A stretch of DNA of 64,000 bases from Pezizomycotina sp. ARF18 (taxonomy: Eukaryota > Ascomycota). The notes beneath the pieces were generated by a model. That model had not been told where the DNA came from, did not search any database, and saw nothing but the letters and a program-made list of their open reading frames with translations. The stretch covers positions 149,501 through 213,500 of the forward strand of contig AZLU01000011.1 in NCBI GenBank assembly GCA_002224055.1, read 5' to 3'. Numbering within the stretch: the stretch's first letter is position 1; each line of letters begins with the position of its first letter. Made by a program: the position numbers and the translations under genes. Of this stretch, positions 1-56,929 are shown in pieces.

Positions 1-363
1 TCTGGAATAGGCGACATGGAAGCGCGAAAGACAGTGATTCGATTACTCGGTTCGCGAGGCGCGGATCCGAACGTACGCGAACCGGGCACCGGTAGGACGG
101 CGTTGCACGTCGCGGTGGAGGGTAGGGAAGCGGGTATAGTAGAGGCGTTGTTGGGACTGCGGCCGGATGTCGACGCCACGGACGGGAAGGGAATGAGCGC
201 TTTACACGAGGCTGTCACTAGGGGTGACGTCGAGATGGTTAAGGTGCTCGCCGCCGCCGGGGGCGCGAATCTGAACGCGTTGGTGGGGAGACCGGGGCAG
301 GTGCCGCAGGGGCAGATGGGGCAGGGACACCAGGAGGAGGTTACGGATGATGAGATGTTCTAA
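1..363 (+). CDS. Ankyrin-repeat protein, C-terminal part
   Basis: The frame is open from the left edge of the window to a TAA at 361-363, so this is the 3' end of a gene that starts outside. It shows about two and a half ankyrin repeats with recognisable helix-turn-helix signatures: GRTALHVAVEGREAGIVEALL and then GMSALHEAVTRGDVEMVKVL, each followed by a hairpin such as VDATDGKG. The repeats are followed by a Gly/Gln-rich tail and an acidic end (EEVTDDEMF). Ankyrin repeats bind other proteins; in fungi such tails often belong to larger proteins with an N-terminal F-box, NACHT or similar domain, but nothing here shows which. The GC-rich codon use and the clean frame suggest a functional gene. 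It is the only recognisable protein family in the window with no visible break. Confidence 0.75.
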   Translation, partial: SGIGDMEARKTVIRLLGSRGADPNVREPGTGRTALHVAVEGREAGIVEALLGLRPDVDATDGKGMSALHEAVTRGDVEMVKVLAAAGGANLNALVGRPGQVPQGQMGQGHQEEVTDDEMF

Positions 364-938: not shown

Positions 939-1391
939 TCATCCATCCTCGGGATCCGGGTCTACAGCCTCCGGCACGACCCAGACCAGCACATCATCGC
1001 TCCTCGCCATACTCCTATACGGCTCCCACGGATACCTTTGTAGGTCCCTCAACATACCCTTCCGCGGCCGTAATAATTCAACGGCCCTTCCAAACTCCGC
1101 CAACCTATCATCGTAATCGAGCTCCCCTCGATCCCCGCTAAGGCACTCTGCGATAACACGTAGCCAGACGCATGGTTCGCAGTCAGTAGTTTCGCATTCT
1201 TTATAGTAAAACTTACTTTCACCGGAGCTAGATAGCACGTCAGCGTCGATTAAGCGGCCAATGACGCGGGCCTTTTCTATCTTTTCGGCGAGGCAGGTGC
1301 AACGTCGCGAGGGGAGCGTGTAGCTATTTATACGCGGCCGGGAGTTGGGGTCGCCGGCGCAGGTGAAGTAGAGGGCGAAGTAGCGGCACAT
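939..1391 (-). CDS. Small cysteine-bearing protein, array copy 1 (intact)
   Basis: This is the best-preserved of five tandem paralogues. I chose ATG 1391 because every copy begins at the matching ATG-TGC (MCRYF/MCQYF). The longer open frame upstream of it is not shared. The 150-residue product starts MCRYFALYFTC, then has a Cys pair (CTCLAEKIEKARVIG), a YYKEC motif near residue 73, a second Cys pair (CEPCVWLR), ECLSGDRGELDYDD, LRDLQRYPW and VLVWVVPE, and ends acidic. Conserved Cys/His spacing suggests metal or disulfide binding. There is no signal peptide or transmembrane segment, so a cytosolic or nuclear protein is likely. I recognise no named domain. GC content is higher than in the other copies. 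The function is unknown. Confidence 0.6.
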   Translation of the reverse strand: MCRYFALYFTCAGDPNSRPRINSYTLPSRRCTCLAEKIEKARVIGRLIDADVLSSSGESKFYYKECETTDCEPCVWLRVIAECLSGDRGELDYDDRLAEFGRAVELLRPRKGMLRDLQRYPWEPYRSMARSDDVLVWVVPEAVDPDPEDG

Positions 1392-1440
1392 TATCACCTG
1401 ATATATCGTTTTTATTTTGCTAGATCTGTTATAGGGGTTG

Positions 1441-1448
1441 TTATATAA
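1441..1448 (-). promoter_or_regulatory. Possible TATA element, array copy 1
   Basis: TATATAA-like sequence on the minus strand about 50 bases upstream of the copy 1 start. It is closer to the start than the TATA elements of copies 2-4, so it may not be the equivalent site. Confidence 0.25.
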
Positions 1449-2109
1449 ACCGTTCCTAGGAGATTTTGCTTTCCTCTTCAAGTTGTATTTTTTTTTTTAA
1501 GTTGTTGCCGGTAGTTGTTAACCAGGTTGCCTTTTAAAATCAAGATAGTAAGTACATGGTAAATGCAAATGGGTTGTAATAAAGTAAAGCCCGGGCTTCG
1601 AACGCCTCGAGCGCAAGGCACGTTGCGAAAGCTTATAGTCAATTTGTTCGCTGGGGTGCGGTAATTTGTAGGTCCAGCTTTTGAATACTTAAGTTTATAA
1701 ACACGGTGTACCCAAGCTCGCGGCAGGTACGTTGTTTAGGCTTCCAACAAATACCACTGATGTTTTTCATTCTTCTATATAAAAAAATATTTGAAGCTGC
1801 TTCATCAACACCGGGGAAAGAACGACCCAAAAGAAATATGTGAGCGAGTGTGGGGTTAAGCCTCAAGTTGCTCTAGACGTCAACTATTTCAGGTTTACGT
1901 TGAAGTTACCCTGAACTTTCCACCTCTCTCTCCAATGCCTATCTCGAAACAGAGCATCCTAGTCTAATTTGAATGCAAGTACACACTATAATAGTTCTCA
2001 AGACCGTCATATGGCGCTTGGGTGTGACGATGATACAGAGACAACGTTTAAAATTACTCTTACCGAGTACAGCTGTGGTATTGACCTCACGTACAGAGTA
2101 TATTCTACA

Positions 2110-2642
2110 CTACGAATGAAATAGTGGAGCACTAAAGGCCTTAATGTGGTAGCCATATATATATTTTTCAGAGAAGGTTGTAGTCCTCCAGAGGCATTGG
2201 CCGTCGATGTTGAAATCAACGCAACGGTCAAGTTCCCAGGCATGATGATAATCATCCAACAGCTTCCACTCCGGCTGCCGGACAAGCCAGGGCAAATCTC
2301 TTAGGACGTGAACGGAGTCACTTAGCCCTAGGGTTCCCACAGTTTGCATTAGGATATTCGTTTTGTCGTCGTACGAGGTCCGCTCGTCGCTGAGAAAGCC
2401 CGCGGTGAGACGCAGCCGCGGCACAGGTCTCTTCGGTGACCACAATCGCGGTGGAAGAGCGCGTGATCGGGCTCCGGGCGCTCGCCGATACGTTTACCGA
2501 TGAACCAAGCCTTTTTGATCTTCTGGGTGTTGCAAGGACAGGTCTCGTGCCAGATGTTGAATACGCGGATTACGTCCTTCCTTATAACGTCCCGGCGACC
2601 TTGCCAGGGGCAGCTGAAGTAGATGTAGAAGTATTGGCACAT
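2110..2642 (-). pseudogene. Small cysteine-bearing protein, array copy 2
   Basis: The start at 2642 gives MCQYFYIYFSCPWQG, followed by IRVFNIWHETCPCNTQKIKKAWFIG and a FHRDCGH motif equivalent to YYKEC of copy 1. Homology then continues in another frame from about 2440: LRLTAGFLSDERTSYDD, LRDLPWLV and a tail with WELDRCVDFNIDG. That tail matches the C-termini of copies 3 and 4. A single frame change near 2440 separates the halves. No plausible intron explains it, so this is a pseudogene or carries a sequencing indel. The rest of the frame is clean. It is the second least decayed copy. Upstream it has TTATAAA about 110 bases before the start. Confidence 0.55.
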
Positions 2643-2750
2643 GTCGGTTGATTTAATGATTCTTGGTAATTTGATGCTGTTGGTAGAAATATAGGTTGTT
2701 ATGATGGAAGAGTAAGTAGTAAATTACTCAACTGCATCAAAGGATGTACC

Positions 2751-2756
2751 TTTATA
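2751..2756 (-). promoter_or_regulatory. TATA element, array copy 2
   Basis: TATAAA on the minus strand about 110 bases upstream of the copy 2 start. Copies 3 and 4 have the same element at about the same distance. Confidence 0.4.
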
Positions 2757-3547
2757 ATAATGTTACTTGATCAGAGTATGAGCAAAAGCTCAAATTTGTA
2801 AGCCGAACTCACGAATTTACGCATCGAAAGACTGTCAAGTTCGAGTTATAAGGAGTGATAGGGCTTATGCTTTTGAGACTTTCCCTTTGTCTCCTTTTCC
2901 TTCTTGATTTCTTCGGCTTCTGACTTCAGTTTGATTTAAGTAATTTCATGGCAAGGGGTTATATCCACACATGATCCCAAAGGACAGGACCATCGGGCCC
3001 TCAAGCCTGAGAGTGAGAACTTATATTCGCAAGTTCGCTATGAGTTCGCCGGTTCCTATGCTTTTCCATAATTCACGTGGCTCTGGACCATGTTAAACAA
3101 GTGCACGAGAACGCGCTATGAGGTATAGTGATAGTTTGTCGGTTATGCTCAGAACCTTTAGCGAATGAAGGCGAACCAAGATGAGCTTGTTATAAAACAT
3201 TACTTAATTCCTTTTTTTCGAAAAAAATCATTTTTTTTGTGGACTCTGGCGTTATGCTCATGTTGTGAGACTGTGTGCTAAACACCTATCTCGCGGCCGT
3301 CAATTTGAAAATAGCTCCGTAGGCTTCGATAAATACTAGTATGAGCGCAAGTATGGACGGTACTCGACTATAAGACCATCCTGTGGTATCTCGCAAGTGC
3401 GAGTATGATATAACAAAAACGATTACAGTTTCTTTTATTGAACAGTGTTATCCTACTGATCTAGTATATAAAGAATACCATATACTACTACCTATCGAAA
3501 TTCAAGCCAGCGCTCAATGTTCTGCGGTATCCTCCTCCATTGATTCT

Positions 3548-4039
3548 TCAGCGGGTGCTGTCGTTGAATTTAGGATCTAGACCGTCGCAATTACACTCAA
3601 AGCACTTGGGCGTTTCCTAGGTAGCCTTACCGTCCAGCAAAACCTTCCCGGTTGCAAAACACACCAGTGAATATGTCCGATATCGCGAATTTCGTCTATC
3701 CCAGGAAATCTCTCAGGGTTCGCATCAACCTATCTAATTCAAACTTGTAAGTGCTATTTTCATCGCTGAGGTACGCCGCGAGGTCTCGTAGAATGGGACA
3801 ATCCGAGCCTTCGTCAGAGTGATGACATTCGCGGTAGCAGACTGCTAAATCACCTTCATTGGGTGCCCGATGAGAGACATATATGCATAACGGCGATGAA
3901 GGAACCTTTTAATCTTTCGGCGTTGCAGGAACGAAGCGGTGACCAAGTCGTGTATCGTAGACTCGTCTCTACCAGAGTTTTTCATCGAAAAGATTTTCAT
4001 CGGCCGTACAGCTGAAGAAATTTCGAAGTATTGGCACAT
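3548..4039 (-). pseudogene. Small cysteine-bearing protein, array copy 3
   Basis: It starts MCQYF at 4039, but a one-base loss within the first ten codons throws the frame. Homology then reappears in pieces: a TWSP...SCNAERLKGSF segment; CYREC, CPILRDLAAYLSDEN and LMRTLRDFLG near 3690-3840; IHWCVLQP; and a C-terminal segment ETPKCFECNCDGLDPKF ending at the TGA 3548-3550. The tail contains a TAG where copy 4 has a Trp codon, the kind of change expected from a G-to-A transition. The combination of stops and frame changes means this copy is dead regardless of any sequencing error. Confidence 0.6.
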
Positions 4040-4136
4040 GATTGATGGATGAGATTCTATGATTTTTCGATGTCTTTTTCGAGGTTTAGAGTAATGAGGG
4101 AAGGGGTTACTTCCATACCTGAGCAATTAGATGCAA

Positions 4137-4143
4137 TTTTATA
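4137..4143 (-). promoter_or_regulatory. TATA element, array copy 3
   Basis: TATAAAA on the minus strand, about 100 bases upstream of the copy 3 start, in the same position as in copies 2 and 4. Confidence 0.4.
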
Positions 4144-4926
4144 GTAATAGATTACGCCGTTACCGTAGTAAGTGCGAAACTCAAGCTTGTTTAAATCCGG
4201 CTGGATTCACGAACTCACAAAAATTGGCGCATCAAGGAGTGATCGAGTTCAGGCCATTGAGCATTATACTACTCCAAGCTTAGAAGTAAGCTTACCCGCT
4301 GGGTGTTAGCAATTGATTCTACTTCAAATTCATAGATCCATTTAGAATAGGAATTATGCACACGGGTGACCCCCGAGGCAGACATCCCGTCTCACTTTTG
4401 AACCAGTACAATCCCTCGAACTCAGTTAGTTTGAGCCCGTTCTTTGCTGTTCCGCCGCGTATAAAGGTGTTTATTCATGCGAACCAAAACAAATCCTTTT
4501 GATCACTCAGTTGATCTCAAACAATATTGAAAGCGGATCGTGAGGCGCTCCGTAATAAGTATTCATATTAGATCTAGATCTAGGACTCCTTGAGATCTAA
4601 AGACTCGGAATAGAGAAATATAGTATTAACCCTGCTGTTGTTGTCAATAGTGGTCTTAGGCCAACTGTCAATAATCGCGAAATATTTTGCTGTGCCTGTA
4701 GTCACTACTCTGGGATCGAGTTTAATAATAAGATCACCCTATAACCTCTCTTCATTACGAAAATAGTTATATAGACGAAAATGGTTAGAATTTCTTTTAT
4801 CTTCAATTACGAAAAATACTACTCTTTATTTGTCTAACGGATAAATAACACATATACTACCGCATAGCAAGATTTAAACACAAAGATTCAATTTAAACAT
4901 TTTTATAGCACCTTCCTCTTGATCGC

Positions 4927-5397
4927 TCAGCTATTGTCGTTGCCGACCTTAGGGTCCGCGCCGTCGATATTGTACTCATAGGTCTCTGACGTTTCCCACG
5001 TAGGCAATTCGTCCACCAACACCACCTTCGGTCTCAGCCAAAACCAGTGTATATCTCTGAGACTGCGAATGTAGCAATCCACCTTTAACGCCTCTGTAGT
5101 TCATAACAGGCTAAATAGTTCGCTTCTTAAGGTGTATCCTTGTCACTAAGGTACGCTGACACGCCCCTCAAAATGGCGCATTGTTGGTTGCTATGATTAC
5201 ACCCGCGGTGATAGACTTTAAAGTCCAGTCCCGGTTCGTTAAAGATAAATTGACCCATGAAGTAGGCTTTTTTAATGTATCGGTTGTCGCAGCGCAAGTT
5301 GGTGACCAGTTCGTGTATGCGCGAATACGGTCTATTTTCAGAATGTGCGTGCCTTTATCCTTAGGACAGGTGAGGAATATGTAAAGAATTGGCACAT
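4927..5397 (-). pseudogene. Small cysteine-bearing protein, array copy 4
   Basis: The conserved start ATG-TGC-CAA is at 5397, but a base missing after codon 3 puts the rest (LYIFLTCPKDKG, IRAYTNWSPTCAATTDTLKK) in a different frame. YHRGCNHS, CAILRGVSAYLSDKD, CYIRSLRDIHWFW, VVLVDELPTWETSE and YNIDGADPKVGNDNS follow with further frame changes and an in-frame TGA, ending at 4927. This copy and copy 3 define the family's C-terminal motif (TWET...NxDGxDPK), which copy 1 lacks. It is clearly non-functional. The TATAAA at about -100 is retained. Confidence 0.6.
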
Positions 5398-5496
5398 GAT
5401 TGATATTTGCTTCTAGGTTATTGGTCGCCCTTGTAGAAATTCGGATTAATGGAAGAAAAGATCAGATACGGATAGCAGAGTACTAAATGTGTATAC

Positions 5497-5502
5497 TTTA
5501 TA
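5497..5502 (-). promoter_or_regulatory. TATA element, array copy 4
   Basis: TATAAA on the minus strand about 100 bases upstream of the copy 4 start, shared with copies 2 and 3. Confidence 0.4.
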
Positions 5503-5764
5503 GCAATATAGGATCACGCGTTAAAACACGAACAGACCCCAAGTTCTTTTAGACGTGAGCTCACAACTCACTAGAGCGATACATGAAGGTAGGATGAGTT
5601 ACCCTTCTCATAAAATAATGTAGGCTTAGAACTACTTGTTTTTGGGCGTGCATCAGCCCTGATTCTCCTACGAATATCTTACGGATTATCAAGCTTATCA
5701 AAAGCAAGTTCATGAGACCCTTCGTAATGAAGCACTCACCTTGATCGTGAGCTAACACTTTTTG

Positions 5765-6060
5765 AAGCTAAAGGGAAGGAGGAATAAAAAACAATAATGA
5801 TTATATTACTTGTTTTTTTTAATAGTTGCGTTAATCGAGTGGTCAATGATAGATAGGGTAGGTTGCAACACGCCGCATAGTCCCCCCTATACTAGACCAG
5901 CGTTATGTCTACGGCCCTTTTTCTTTTCTTTTCTTTTCTTTCATTTTAACAATAATAAGAATAATAATAGTAATAACAATCATAGTAATATATATATCAA
6001 ATTTTCTGCATCGGTAGTCCTAATAACCAACTTGCTACTTTTGGAGATTCAATAATTAAC
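5765..6060. other. AT-rich low-complexity stretch
   Basis: TTTTC repeats at about 5918-5940, then AATAATA-type repeats. It lies between array copies 4 and 5 and holds no gene. Confidence 0.5.
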
Positions 6061-6230
6061 AATATTGTTATTTGTTCAATTTGCATTTCATTTTTGTAAC
6101 AATCCATCGTTTTTTACCGCTCTAATCATTTAAGACTAGGCTATACGTACCTCCCAAAGATACAAAGGTATGAAGCTATATTCGGAATGTGTGACGCTTA
6201 GTCACTCTGTGAATAATAGGTGCGAGAGTG

Positions 6231-6664
6231 CTAAGATATATACCACACCGGTTCGTCGTCAAGGTTTATTTTTGTCGGCTGTCTTTCGAGCGCCTTAAAG
6301 TGAGCTATGTGAGTGACTGTCTCCGGTACCCGCAGTACTCGAGCGGGTCCATGAGAATGGCCGCCTTGTCATCGCTGTCATATGTCCCGCTTCTATCGCG
6401 AAGACAGTTTGAGACTTCCTTCAGAGCTTTGCATGTCGTGCAGTCGTCGGGTCGCACTCGCGGTAGAACCACTCGGGATCTCCATTATCAGCCACGCAGT
6501 GGTGAACCGGGCGGCCGATGGGGTGTGCTGCGACTATTCTTGGACGGAAACAAGGCAGAACTGGGAATCTGAAGAGTACGTACGAATCCTGTCTATTACG
6601 GGATCTCTGACGCGGGTGGGTTTGTCCTGGGCATGCAAAGTAAATAATGTTAGTTTCGGCACAT
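6231..6664 (-). pseudogene. Small cysteine-bearing protein, array copy 5
   Basis: This is the most decayed copy and the one nearest the Copia element (its start is 193 bases from the element). The start MCR is at 6664, followed within a few codons by a stop in frame. Family sequence continues in other frames: IIYFACPGQ, DRIRTYSSDSQ, WFYREC, CTTCKALKEVSNCLRDRSG, TYDSDDKAAIL and LDDEPVW. The YREC and CxxCxxLxxxxxCLxDRSG motifs identify it securely as a family member. Several frame changes and stops show it is a relic. Confidence 0.55.
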
Positions 6665-37722: not shown

Positions 37723-38671
37723 TCAGATCTGCTTGTAAACGGCGACGTAATCAACGGCCATAGCCGCCTCTAACCCATCCTTCGTCCCACTAGTCGGCGT
37801 AGTACTGCCGGCCAGAGCGTTCGGGTAAGCTCCCCCAACGGCCACGTTCAAAATAACAAAATAAGGCTTCGCGGTCAAATTACTCCACGTGCTCAAAACC
37901 CCAATCTGCGCGCCGGTAATCCTATTGGTGATTTTCCCGTCGAAGGTCCACGTAATACTCTGCTGCCGCCAGTTCTTGCTCGTCCTGTCCACCAACAACG
38001 CAAATTTATGGAAATTCCCGTCGCGCGAATTAGGCGTGCTCATGGGATTAGATAAACCCGTCGGCTCATTACAGGCAGGGGCATCGCAGTGTACGCCCCC
38101 GACGATGTTCGGAAGGCCGTTGGTTCCCTCCATTATATCCCACTCGCCGGTTCCAGGCCAACCTGCGTTTCCGTTGTCGCGGAAGGCTTTACCCATGGCC
38201 CAGAACGCCGGCCAGATACCCTGCAGGTTGCCGTTATAATGCTTCGCATTGAGGTTTATGCTGGCTTCGACGAGCATGCGCTTGCCGTTGTCGCAGGCGA
38301 ATGAAGCGCGGGTTTCGATGCGACCGGAAGTCCACTGGTCGCTGCCATCGCGGCGTGGAACGATGTATAAGTTACCGCCGCGGGAGAAGAGGTTCGAGGA
38401 CAATGAGGTCATGGTTTCGACCTCGCCGGTGCCCCAATTGGTACGGGTGGACGTCGCCGTCGAGCGGCGAGTAACCCTGACCCCCGTCGATGATCCAGTT
38501 CGTATTGCTGGCGAAGTTGTTGGTATTCAAGAGAAAGTCGTCGGACCATGTCAGGCGGTAACCTGACTTTGATGGGACGCGCTTAGGGTTACCACTGTAA
38601 CGGGGTTCAAGAGAAGACGGGAAAGCAGAAGCGATACATGGGAGCAGGGTGGAGAGAATGACTGCCTTCAT
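37723..38671 (-). CDS. Secreted GH16 endo-beta-glucanase, one frameshift
   Basis: Family 16 glycoside hydrolases cut beta-1,3(4)-glucan in cell walls. ATG 38671 opens a signal peptide (MKAVILSTLLPCIASAFPSS), then GYRLTWSDDFLLNTNNFASN, NWIIDGGQGYSPLDGD; after a shift near 38.44 kb TNWGTGEVETMTS, GIWPAFWAMGKAF, and the catalytic motif GEWDIMEG (ExDxxE: nucleophile and acid/base both present), VGGVHCDAPACNEPTGLSN, and YFVILNVAVGGAYPNALAGS to DYVAVYKQI, with a stop at 37723. Total length, about 305 residues, is normal for the family. The C-terminal 229 residues are uninterrupted. The single frame change, in otherwise perfect sequence, is the best candidate in the window for an assembly indel. Confidence 0.8.
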
Positions 38672-55356: not shown

Positions 55357-55684
55357 AGAAACTTCACTTTCTGGACACTATACAACTGGCTTTATACCAT
55401 AGACATGGGGCTCCTCATAGATTCTCTTGGGCTTTTCATAAGATCTTTTCTTTTTTCTTTCTACCTAGTTTTCACTGGCGTCGTGATAGGACAGGCTTTG
55501 TACAGCAACACCATAGAATTTTCCCAATTTATCGTTTGCAGAATAGCTTCAAGTTAAGTGTTATGGTAGGAATGTCTTTACGCTACGTTTGCTATAGATT
55601 GTGCTGCACCTGCCAGAACTGCAACCACAGTTGCCTGTTTCTTCATTCCCGTTTCAATGTACCGGCTGTCTTCCTCCTTTTTCT

Positions 55685-55811
55685 TTATTTTATTTTATTT
55701 TATTTTATTTTATTTTATTTTATTTTATTTTATTTTATTTTATTTTATTTTATTTTATTTATTTTATTTTATTTTATTTTATTTTATTTTATTTTATTTT
55801 ATTATTTTATT
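55685..55811 (+). repeat. (TTTTA)n microsatellite
   Basis: About 24 TTTTA/ATTTT units with one slip near 55760; the longest simple repeat in the window. Shorter arrays of the same or similar unit occur at 12093-12122 and 49836-49898. Confidence 0.9.
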
Positions 55812-56929
55812 TCTATTCTTTTGGTTTTTTCTATACTCTGTTTTCGTTCTCCTGTTTCTTTCTTACATTATCGTTGTCTGCTTTTGCAGCTGGAGAAGCG
55901 CAATCAATGCAAGCCCTGGGAAATATGATCGGGCTTGCCCCCCTTTCTTTTCCTCCGCTTATTTTTCTTCCCTCATTTGCTTTCTTGTTTATTTTGCTTA
56001 TTTCTTTTGCTCTTAATCTTTTTGTTTTCTGTTTCCTGTTGTATCTTATTTTCTGTATATTATTTTCTTGTACATTTTTTCTGCTATTTTTGTATATTTC
56101 CTTTGTATCTTCGTTTTATTTCTTGTGTATATTTCCTTTGTATCTTTGTTTTATTTTTATGTAATTTCCTTTGTATGTTTTAGTTTTTTTTTTTTTTTTT
56201 TTTTTGTTCACACTTGTTTTCTCGCTATCCGGTCGGCCTTCTGCTCATCTTCCCACTCTCTTCTCCTTGCGAGAATTGTGGAAGCTTGGATCGAGCATTG
56301 CAGCTTGCTACCCCATTCCCAGTGGAGGGAAGGCCCCTGGTGTTCGAGCCTTGCACAAGGTCGTCACTACAGGGTCCCCCGGCGTGGCGCCACCCTTCCA
56401 AGAAGCAGTCGGGCAAGTGGGGTAGGGTTTGACCCCAATTATCGGGGTTCTCTACTCATACTTCAACTCGAAGACTGGGGCTTTATGGGGAATGCATTGC
56501 TTCTTCCATCTATATCAATTACGGATGGTTGTTCTTGTTTTTTGCGTTATGATTTTCCGTCCACTTTGGTTCTATTGGCGTAACTTCTACTTTTCTCCAC
56601 CCTTAAGGCGTTTTGGAAAGAGTTAAGAACAAAGAGCATGGGTTTGACCCTCGCGAAGGGCCTTCGGGTCAACATCTGGCTTGGAGGAAACCCCGATGCC
56701 ACAGAGCCTTTGCCTGATTCGCCCCTGGCTTGAGCCGCTACGCATTTTTACTCCCTTTGTCCTTTTTCTTTTTTTGTTTTTTGGACTTGAATTTTTGCAT
56801 ACGCTTTCTTGAATTTTTTGGATATGCTTTTTTGTTTTTGGATACCTTTCTTGAATTTTGTTTTGTTTTGTTTTTTTTTGGATGTTTTGTTTCAAGTTAT
56901 CTCTGCAGTGTTTTCTCTCCGAATTTGCT

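Follow-up and report, generated by a model that had tools for sequence, protein, structure and literature searches.

Filamentous ascomycetes contain lineage-specific tandem families, in which diverged short genes lie head to tail near repeat-rich DNA. Small size, cysteines, clustering, fast divergence and repeat-rich surroundings are often reported for effector families. Hypothetical proteins of the pattern MCxxxxxxYxCGH, which start with Met-Cys and have a second cysteine about nine residues further on, are common in fungi. The genes described here, found in a 64,000-nucleotide stretch of DNA from Pezizomycotina sp. ARF18 (the window), have the same arrangement as the ascomycete tandem families, a likeness of kind and not of a sequence family, and differ from them in having no Pfam or PDB match, a seven-cysteine pattern and no apparent secretion signal. 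With the MCxxxxxxYxCGH proteins they share the Met-Cys start and the spacing of the second cysteine, but this cysteine is not followed by Gly-His, the comparison being one of general pattern only. The AvrLm6-like family of Venturia is likewise large, resides in a fungal genome with RIP and is described as effector-like, whereas the members here have no recognisable signal peptide; the two families are compared by description only (PMC4646964).

The minus strand of the window carries five related genes with starts at 1391, 2642, 4039, 5397 and 6664, as an initial annotation of this DNA had proposed. A profile of 14 family members, all from outside the window, was aligned to the copies with tolerance of frame changes. 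The alignments begin exactly at these five starts, and copies 1–5 score 138, 125, 63, 85 and 110, respectively, each exceeding its own 60 dinucleotide shuffles (best scores, 45–58), the opposite strands (24–49) and the best of 174 other tiles of the window (61), so that the translated copies do align above chance. Copy 3 has the lowest protein score, just over that of the best unrelated tile; in a BLAST comparison of the region with itself, its DNA matches copy 2 over 33 nt (88%) and copy 4 over 39 nt (79%) and 110 nt (67%). For the open pieces, hmmsearch gave E-values of 2e-13 (copy 1), 1e-10 (copy 2), 4e-5 (copy 5) and 0.01 (copy 4), the copy 3 piece being weak (1.3). Self-BLAST also shows start offsets of 1.25–1.40 kb between copies 1 and 2, 2 and 3, and 3 and 4, confirming the proposed spacing, and further matches between copies 3 and 4 at offsets of 1361–1379 include flanking DNA.

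Copy 1 (939–1391, including the stop codon) is an unbroken ORF of 150 amino acids (942–1391) starting with MCRYFALYFTC, with neither frameshift nor stop. It is the only copy in which a single frame runs across the whole gene, which bears out the view that gene calling would be mostly blind to the array. Copy 2 (2110–2642) has one frameshift and no in-frame stop in its aligned part (2272–2642); its 3′ end is uncertain, 2110 being the end of the open frame that holds the C-terminal part. Three frameshifts are present in the aligned part (3711–4039) of copy 3 (3548–4039), and its tail, which reaches to about 3548, has one in-frame TAG at 3617–3619 on the minus strand, a point at which the related copy 4 tail continues open; copy 3 may be damaged. 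Copy 4 (4927–5397) also has three frameshifts in its aligned part (5041–5397), followed by an open tail, TWETSETYEYNIDGADPK, to about 4927. The aligned part of copy 5 (6353–6664) contains two frameshifts, and its 3′ end was not found. Of the tail motif that had been assigned to copies 2–4, copy 2 keeps only part, whereas copies 3 and 4 show it clearly. Also on the minus strand, TATAAA occurs at 2751–2756, 4138–4143 and 5497–5502; the distance to the gene start downstream is 114, 104 and 105 bases for copies 2, 3 and 4, respectively, where about 100 had been claimed. This common position, together with the repeats of copies 3 and 4 that take in the flanks, supports duplication of the gene with its promoter, and the initial reading of a tandem array largely hidden from gene calling is likewise supported.

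The genome (46.4 Mb in 408 contigs) has 59 places matching the start pattern MCx5[any]Y[F/L]xC as DNA, compared with one for a backward control, and at least one of the 59 (C310) resembles simple sequence. Pooling the pattern places with protein hits of E ≤ 0.01 and with copies 3–5 of the window gives a family of at least about 72 loci. When loci with gaps under 5 kb are taken as one cluster, 57 of the approximately 72 loci listed fall in 17 clusters; the array in the window is one of them, which adds to the initial reading. Among the loci listed, 37 of 40 neighbour pairs are on the same strand, with 21 of the 37 same-strand spacings within 1.1–1.6 kb (range, 0.7–4.4). Contig C3 has a run of three unbroken members at 147555, 148681 and 149881, and a fourth hit, without stops, is at 146268. 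The likeness among 35 copies is 0.297 within a contig versus 0.226 between contigs, a difference reached in none of 2000 label shuffles. As expected of a tandem family, therefore, homologues stand side by side on the same strand and cluster mates are nearer to each other than to other members, and head-to-tail neighbours that are more alike than members elsewhere fit local duplication. We regard it as virtually certain that the five copies belong to one family scattered in clusters through the genome.

In searches for relatives, 11 members had no match at cut-off in Pfam, and neither copy 1 nor an 11-row profile matched the PDB. Weak Pfam hits (CitX, 0.055; EGF_4, 0.053; EAV_GP5, 0.04; PHM7_cyt, 0.024; and others) were rejected as chance, because they were below the curated cut-offs or isolated, each in a single member. 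Viral contigs and GTDB genomes gave 12 and 42 pattern matches with copy 1, respectively, and no close relative, a weak test of restriction to one lineage, and the family was not found in the literature under the terms tried. Judged by these comparisons, the family is without a name in the libraries searched (Pfam and PDB), and the initial designation as an unnamed family of small genes holds, homology among the copies being evident and a Pfam match absent.

Fifteen unbroken members were fetched, which have 100–164 amino acids. Seven common cysteines (C2, C11, CxnC, C, C, CxxC) are present in 13 of them, while L047 is without one and the plus-strand member of L074 without two. Eleven of the 15 were aligned, and C2, C11, C31, C33, C66, C71, C74, Y8 and G45 (numbered as in copy 1) are invariant among them, the conservation of C2 and C11 being biased because both were in the search pattern. 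A second alignment covers 35 copies, broken ones among them, and is biased towards the profile to which it was fitted. Of its cysteine columns that played no part in the search pattern, three are complete (34/34, 33/33 and 32/32 copies) and two others have the residue in 28/32 and 22/31. By hydrophobicity alone, no transmembrane span is seen in the 15 unbroken members, nor is a plausible signal-peptide core in 14 of them; the borderline member (L021, C8:244330) begins with a hydrophobic run of 12 residues that might be taken for such a core. By the methionine aminopeptidase rule, an N-terminal Met-Cys is expected to be trimmed, leaving a free N-terminal cysteine. In proteins with no secretion signal, seven conserved cysteines are more suggestive of metal ligands than of disulfides, and metal binding by the family proteins is predicted at slightly better than an even chance. 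This prediction derives from the cysteine pattern alone, since modelling of the copy 1 structure, for which copy 2 was the sole alignment row, gave no usable result (mean pLDDT, 32).

Upstream of the genes, 45 of 70 TATAWA sites fall 100–199 bases from the start, and a 6-mer scan of the upstream DNA returned AT-rich words only, with nothing convincing beyond TATA. At the starts of 53 copies, A is found at -3 in 87%. The protein is shown to be under constraint: pN is lower than pS in 104 of 105 pairs of the 15 intact copies, with medians of 0.56 and 0.81, pS being near saturation in this comparison. Only five in-frame stops occur in 5055 codons of the family, and the loss of constraint that marks pseudogenes is not seen in either count.

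An open frame of at least 100 amino acids is present in only 15 of 49 distinct fetched copies. The frameshift count is based on 50 aligned sequences; one is a truncated duplicate, so that 49 of the 59 pattern places are represented by distinct copies, which were picked by an intact start motif and include the 14 profile seeds. The family has 55 frameshifts in 15.2 kb (3.6 per kb), with a base missing in 36 and an extra base in 19. Similar breaks are found in other genes of the assembly. At five of six HSP70 loci the gene is divided into successive pieces whose frames differ (21 frame changes over 8.9 kb), and seven of eight CCT loci are split in the same manner (11 frame changes in 8.7 kb). 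These piece counts use 37 HSP70 rows out of 38 and 32 CCT rows out of 33, the only C10 row and a C20 row overlapping another being omitted. One HSP70 gene aligned with E. coli DnaK has seven frameshifts in 1.8 kb (3.9 per kb), all of them missing bases, and no in-frame stop in 601 codons. HSP70 and CCT being essential, their breaks must largely be assembly errors, and because essential genes of the same assembly are likewise broken, the frame breaks that hide copies 2–5 are most likely assembly indels, a further addition to the initial reading. At 3.6–3.9 per kb, about one quarter of genes 0.4 kb in length would be left unbroken, near the observed proportion (15 of 49). Among 34 broken copies, 19 show homology past the first open frame that beats every one of 19 shuffles, where about two are expected; in the other 15 it stays within the shuffles, in part because the frame ended near the gene end. 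The piece-count rates of CCT (1.3 per kb) and HSP70 (2.3 per kb) are below that of the family, but they come from another method that yields lower bounds, and some real decay is still possible. Insertions make up 19 of the 55 family frameshifts versus missing bases only in the one HSP70 gene, and the fetched copies L017 and L036 have both stops and frameshifts. On balance, we hold with considerable confidence that assembly error, at single bases, is the main cause of the broken frames; most family members are probably intact, working genes. Frameshifted essential genes are observed assembly-wide, for example at L082 (C49:52900–54950).

From 7001 to about 11500 of the window there is a very strong RIP signature, with TpA/ApT of 1.5–1.6 and a (CpA+TpG)/(ApC+GpT) substrate index of 0.03–0.09, and this stretch is probably an old repeat element. 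About 300 bases separate the start of copy 5 from the onset of the extreme RIP DNA. Within the array, the RIP indices are near neutral in six of seven bins, bin 1001–2000 being mildly RIP-like (0.44), and decay of the array as a whole by RIP is thus unsupported. On the other side, the C-terminal end of an ankyrin-repeat gene (1–363, plus strand) adjoins copy 1.

The explanation we consider likely overall is that of a large, fast-diverging family of intracellular metal-binding proteins expanded by duplication of gene and promoter. The cluster would have arisen by repeated local duplication of the two together, beside heavily RIP-mutated DNA. The proteins would stay inside the cell, where the seven cysteines may bind a metal, probably zinc, forming a small scaffold with loops that vary between copies. 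Most speculatively, the variable surfaces might bind other proteins and the clusters might serve as a repertoire of related binding modules, a guess that we think is probably wrong. The closest pair among 52 copies matches in DNA at 70% over 240 bases. The absence of close pairs fits removal of fresh duplicates by RIP, and RIP mutating away new tandem copies that are still alike would explain why no close pair exists among the approximately 72 members; the identity threshold of RIP is that of Neurospora. A fuller version, in which the intracellular metal-binding family would be a diversified recognition repertoire shaped by RIP, with only copies diverged below the threshold surviving, is quite unlikely to be right in all its parts. 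A relict array, with copy 1 alive and copies 2–5 true pseudogenes decayed after duplication, is unlikely. It would account for the one to three frameshifts in each of these copies, the in-frame TAG in copy 3, and the nearness of extreme RIP DNA to copy 5 with the mildly RIP-like bin in the array, but the 511 codons aligned across the five copies contain no in-frame stop, the cysteines are kept in broken copies, the array indices are otherwise near neutral, and essential genes show the same kind of breaks.

The resemblance to effector families, in that the members are small, cysteine-containing, clustered, fast-diverging and near repeat-rich DNA, raises the question of whether they are unconventionally exported effectors with a site of action outside the fungus. 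We judge this improbable, since 14 of the 15 unbroken members have neither a signal peptide nor a membrane span by hydrophobicity, and C2 and C11, both within the first 11 residues, are ill-suited to a cleaved leader. Alternatively, the clusters might have been spread by a mobile element to which the genes belong or which has captured them. A stretch that is RIP-mutated and probably derived from a transposon does adjoin the array, and clusters are found on many contigs, yet neighbours within clusters run head to tail and resemble one another more than they resemble members elsewhere, the repeats seen between units are short ones, and the pieces scanned, which cover part of the window, yielded neither a transposase nor an integrase. 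We rate this origin as very improbable. The family raises the question of how a tandem family can expand where the adjoining DNA shows very strong RIP, which is expected to destroy fresh duplicates. A family of about 72 loci is here largely hidden from ordinary gene calling because the assembly breaks most of its frames, and as a practical warning, claims of decay from this assembly need caution.

Further along the window, an open frame on the minus strand at 37726–38526 has weak SKN1/KRE6 and GH16 matches, below the Pfam cut-offs, and a long frame at about 55600–55900 is built of a TTTTA-type simple repeat.
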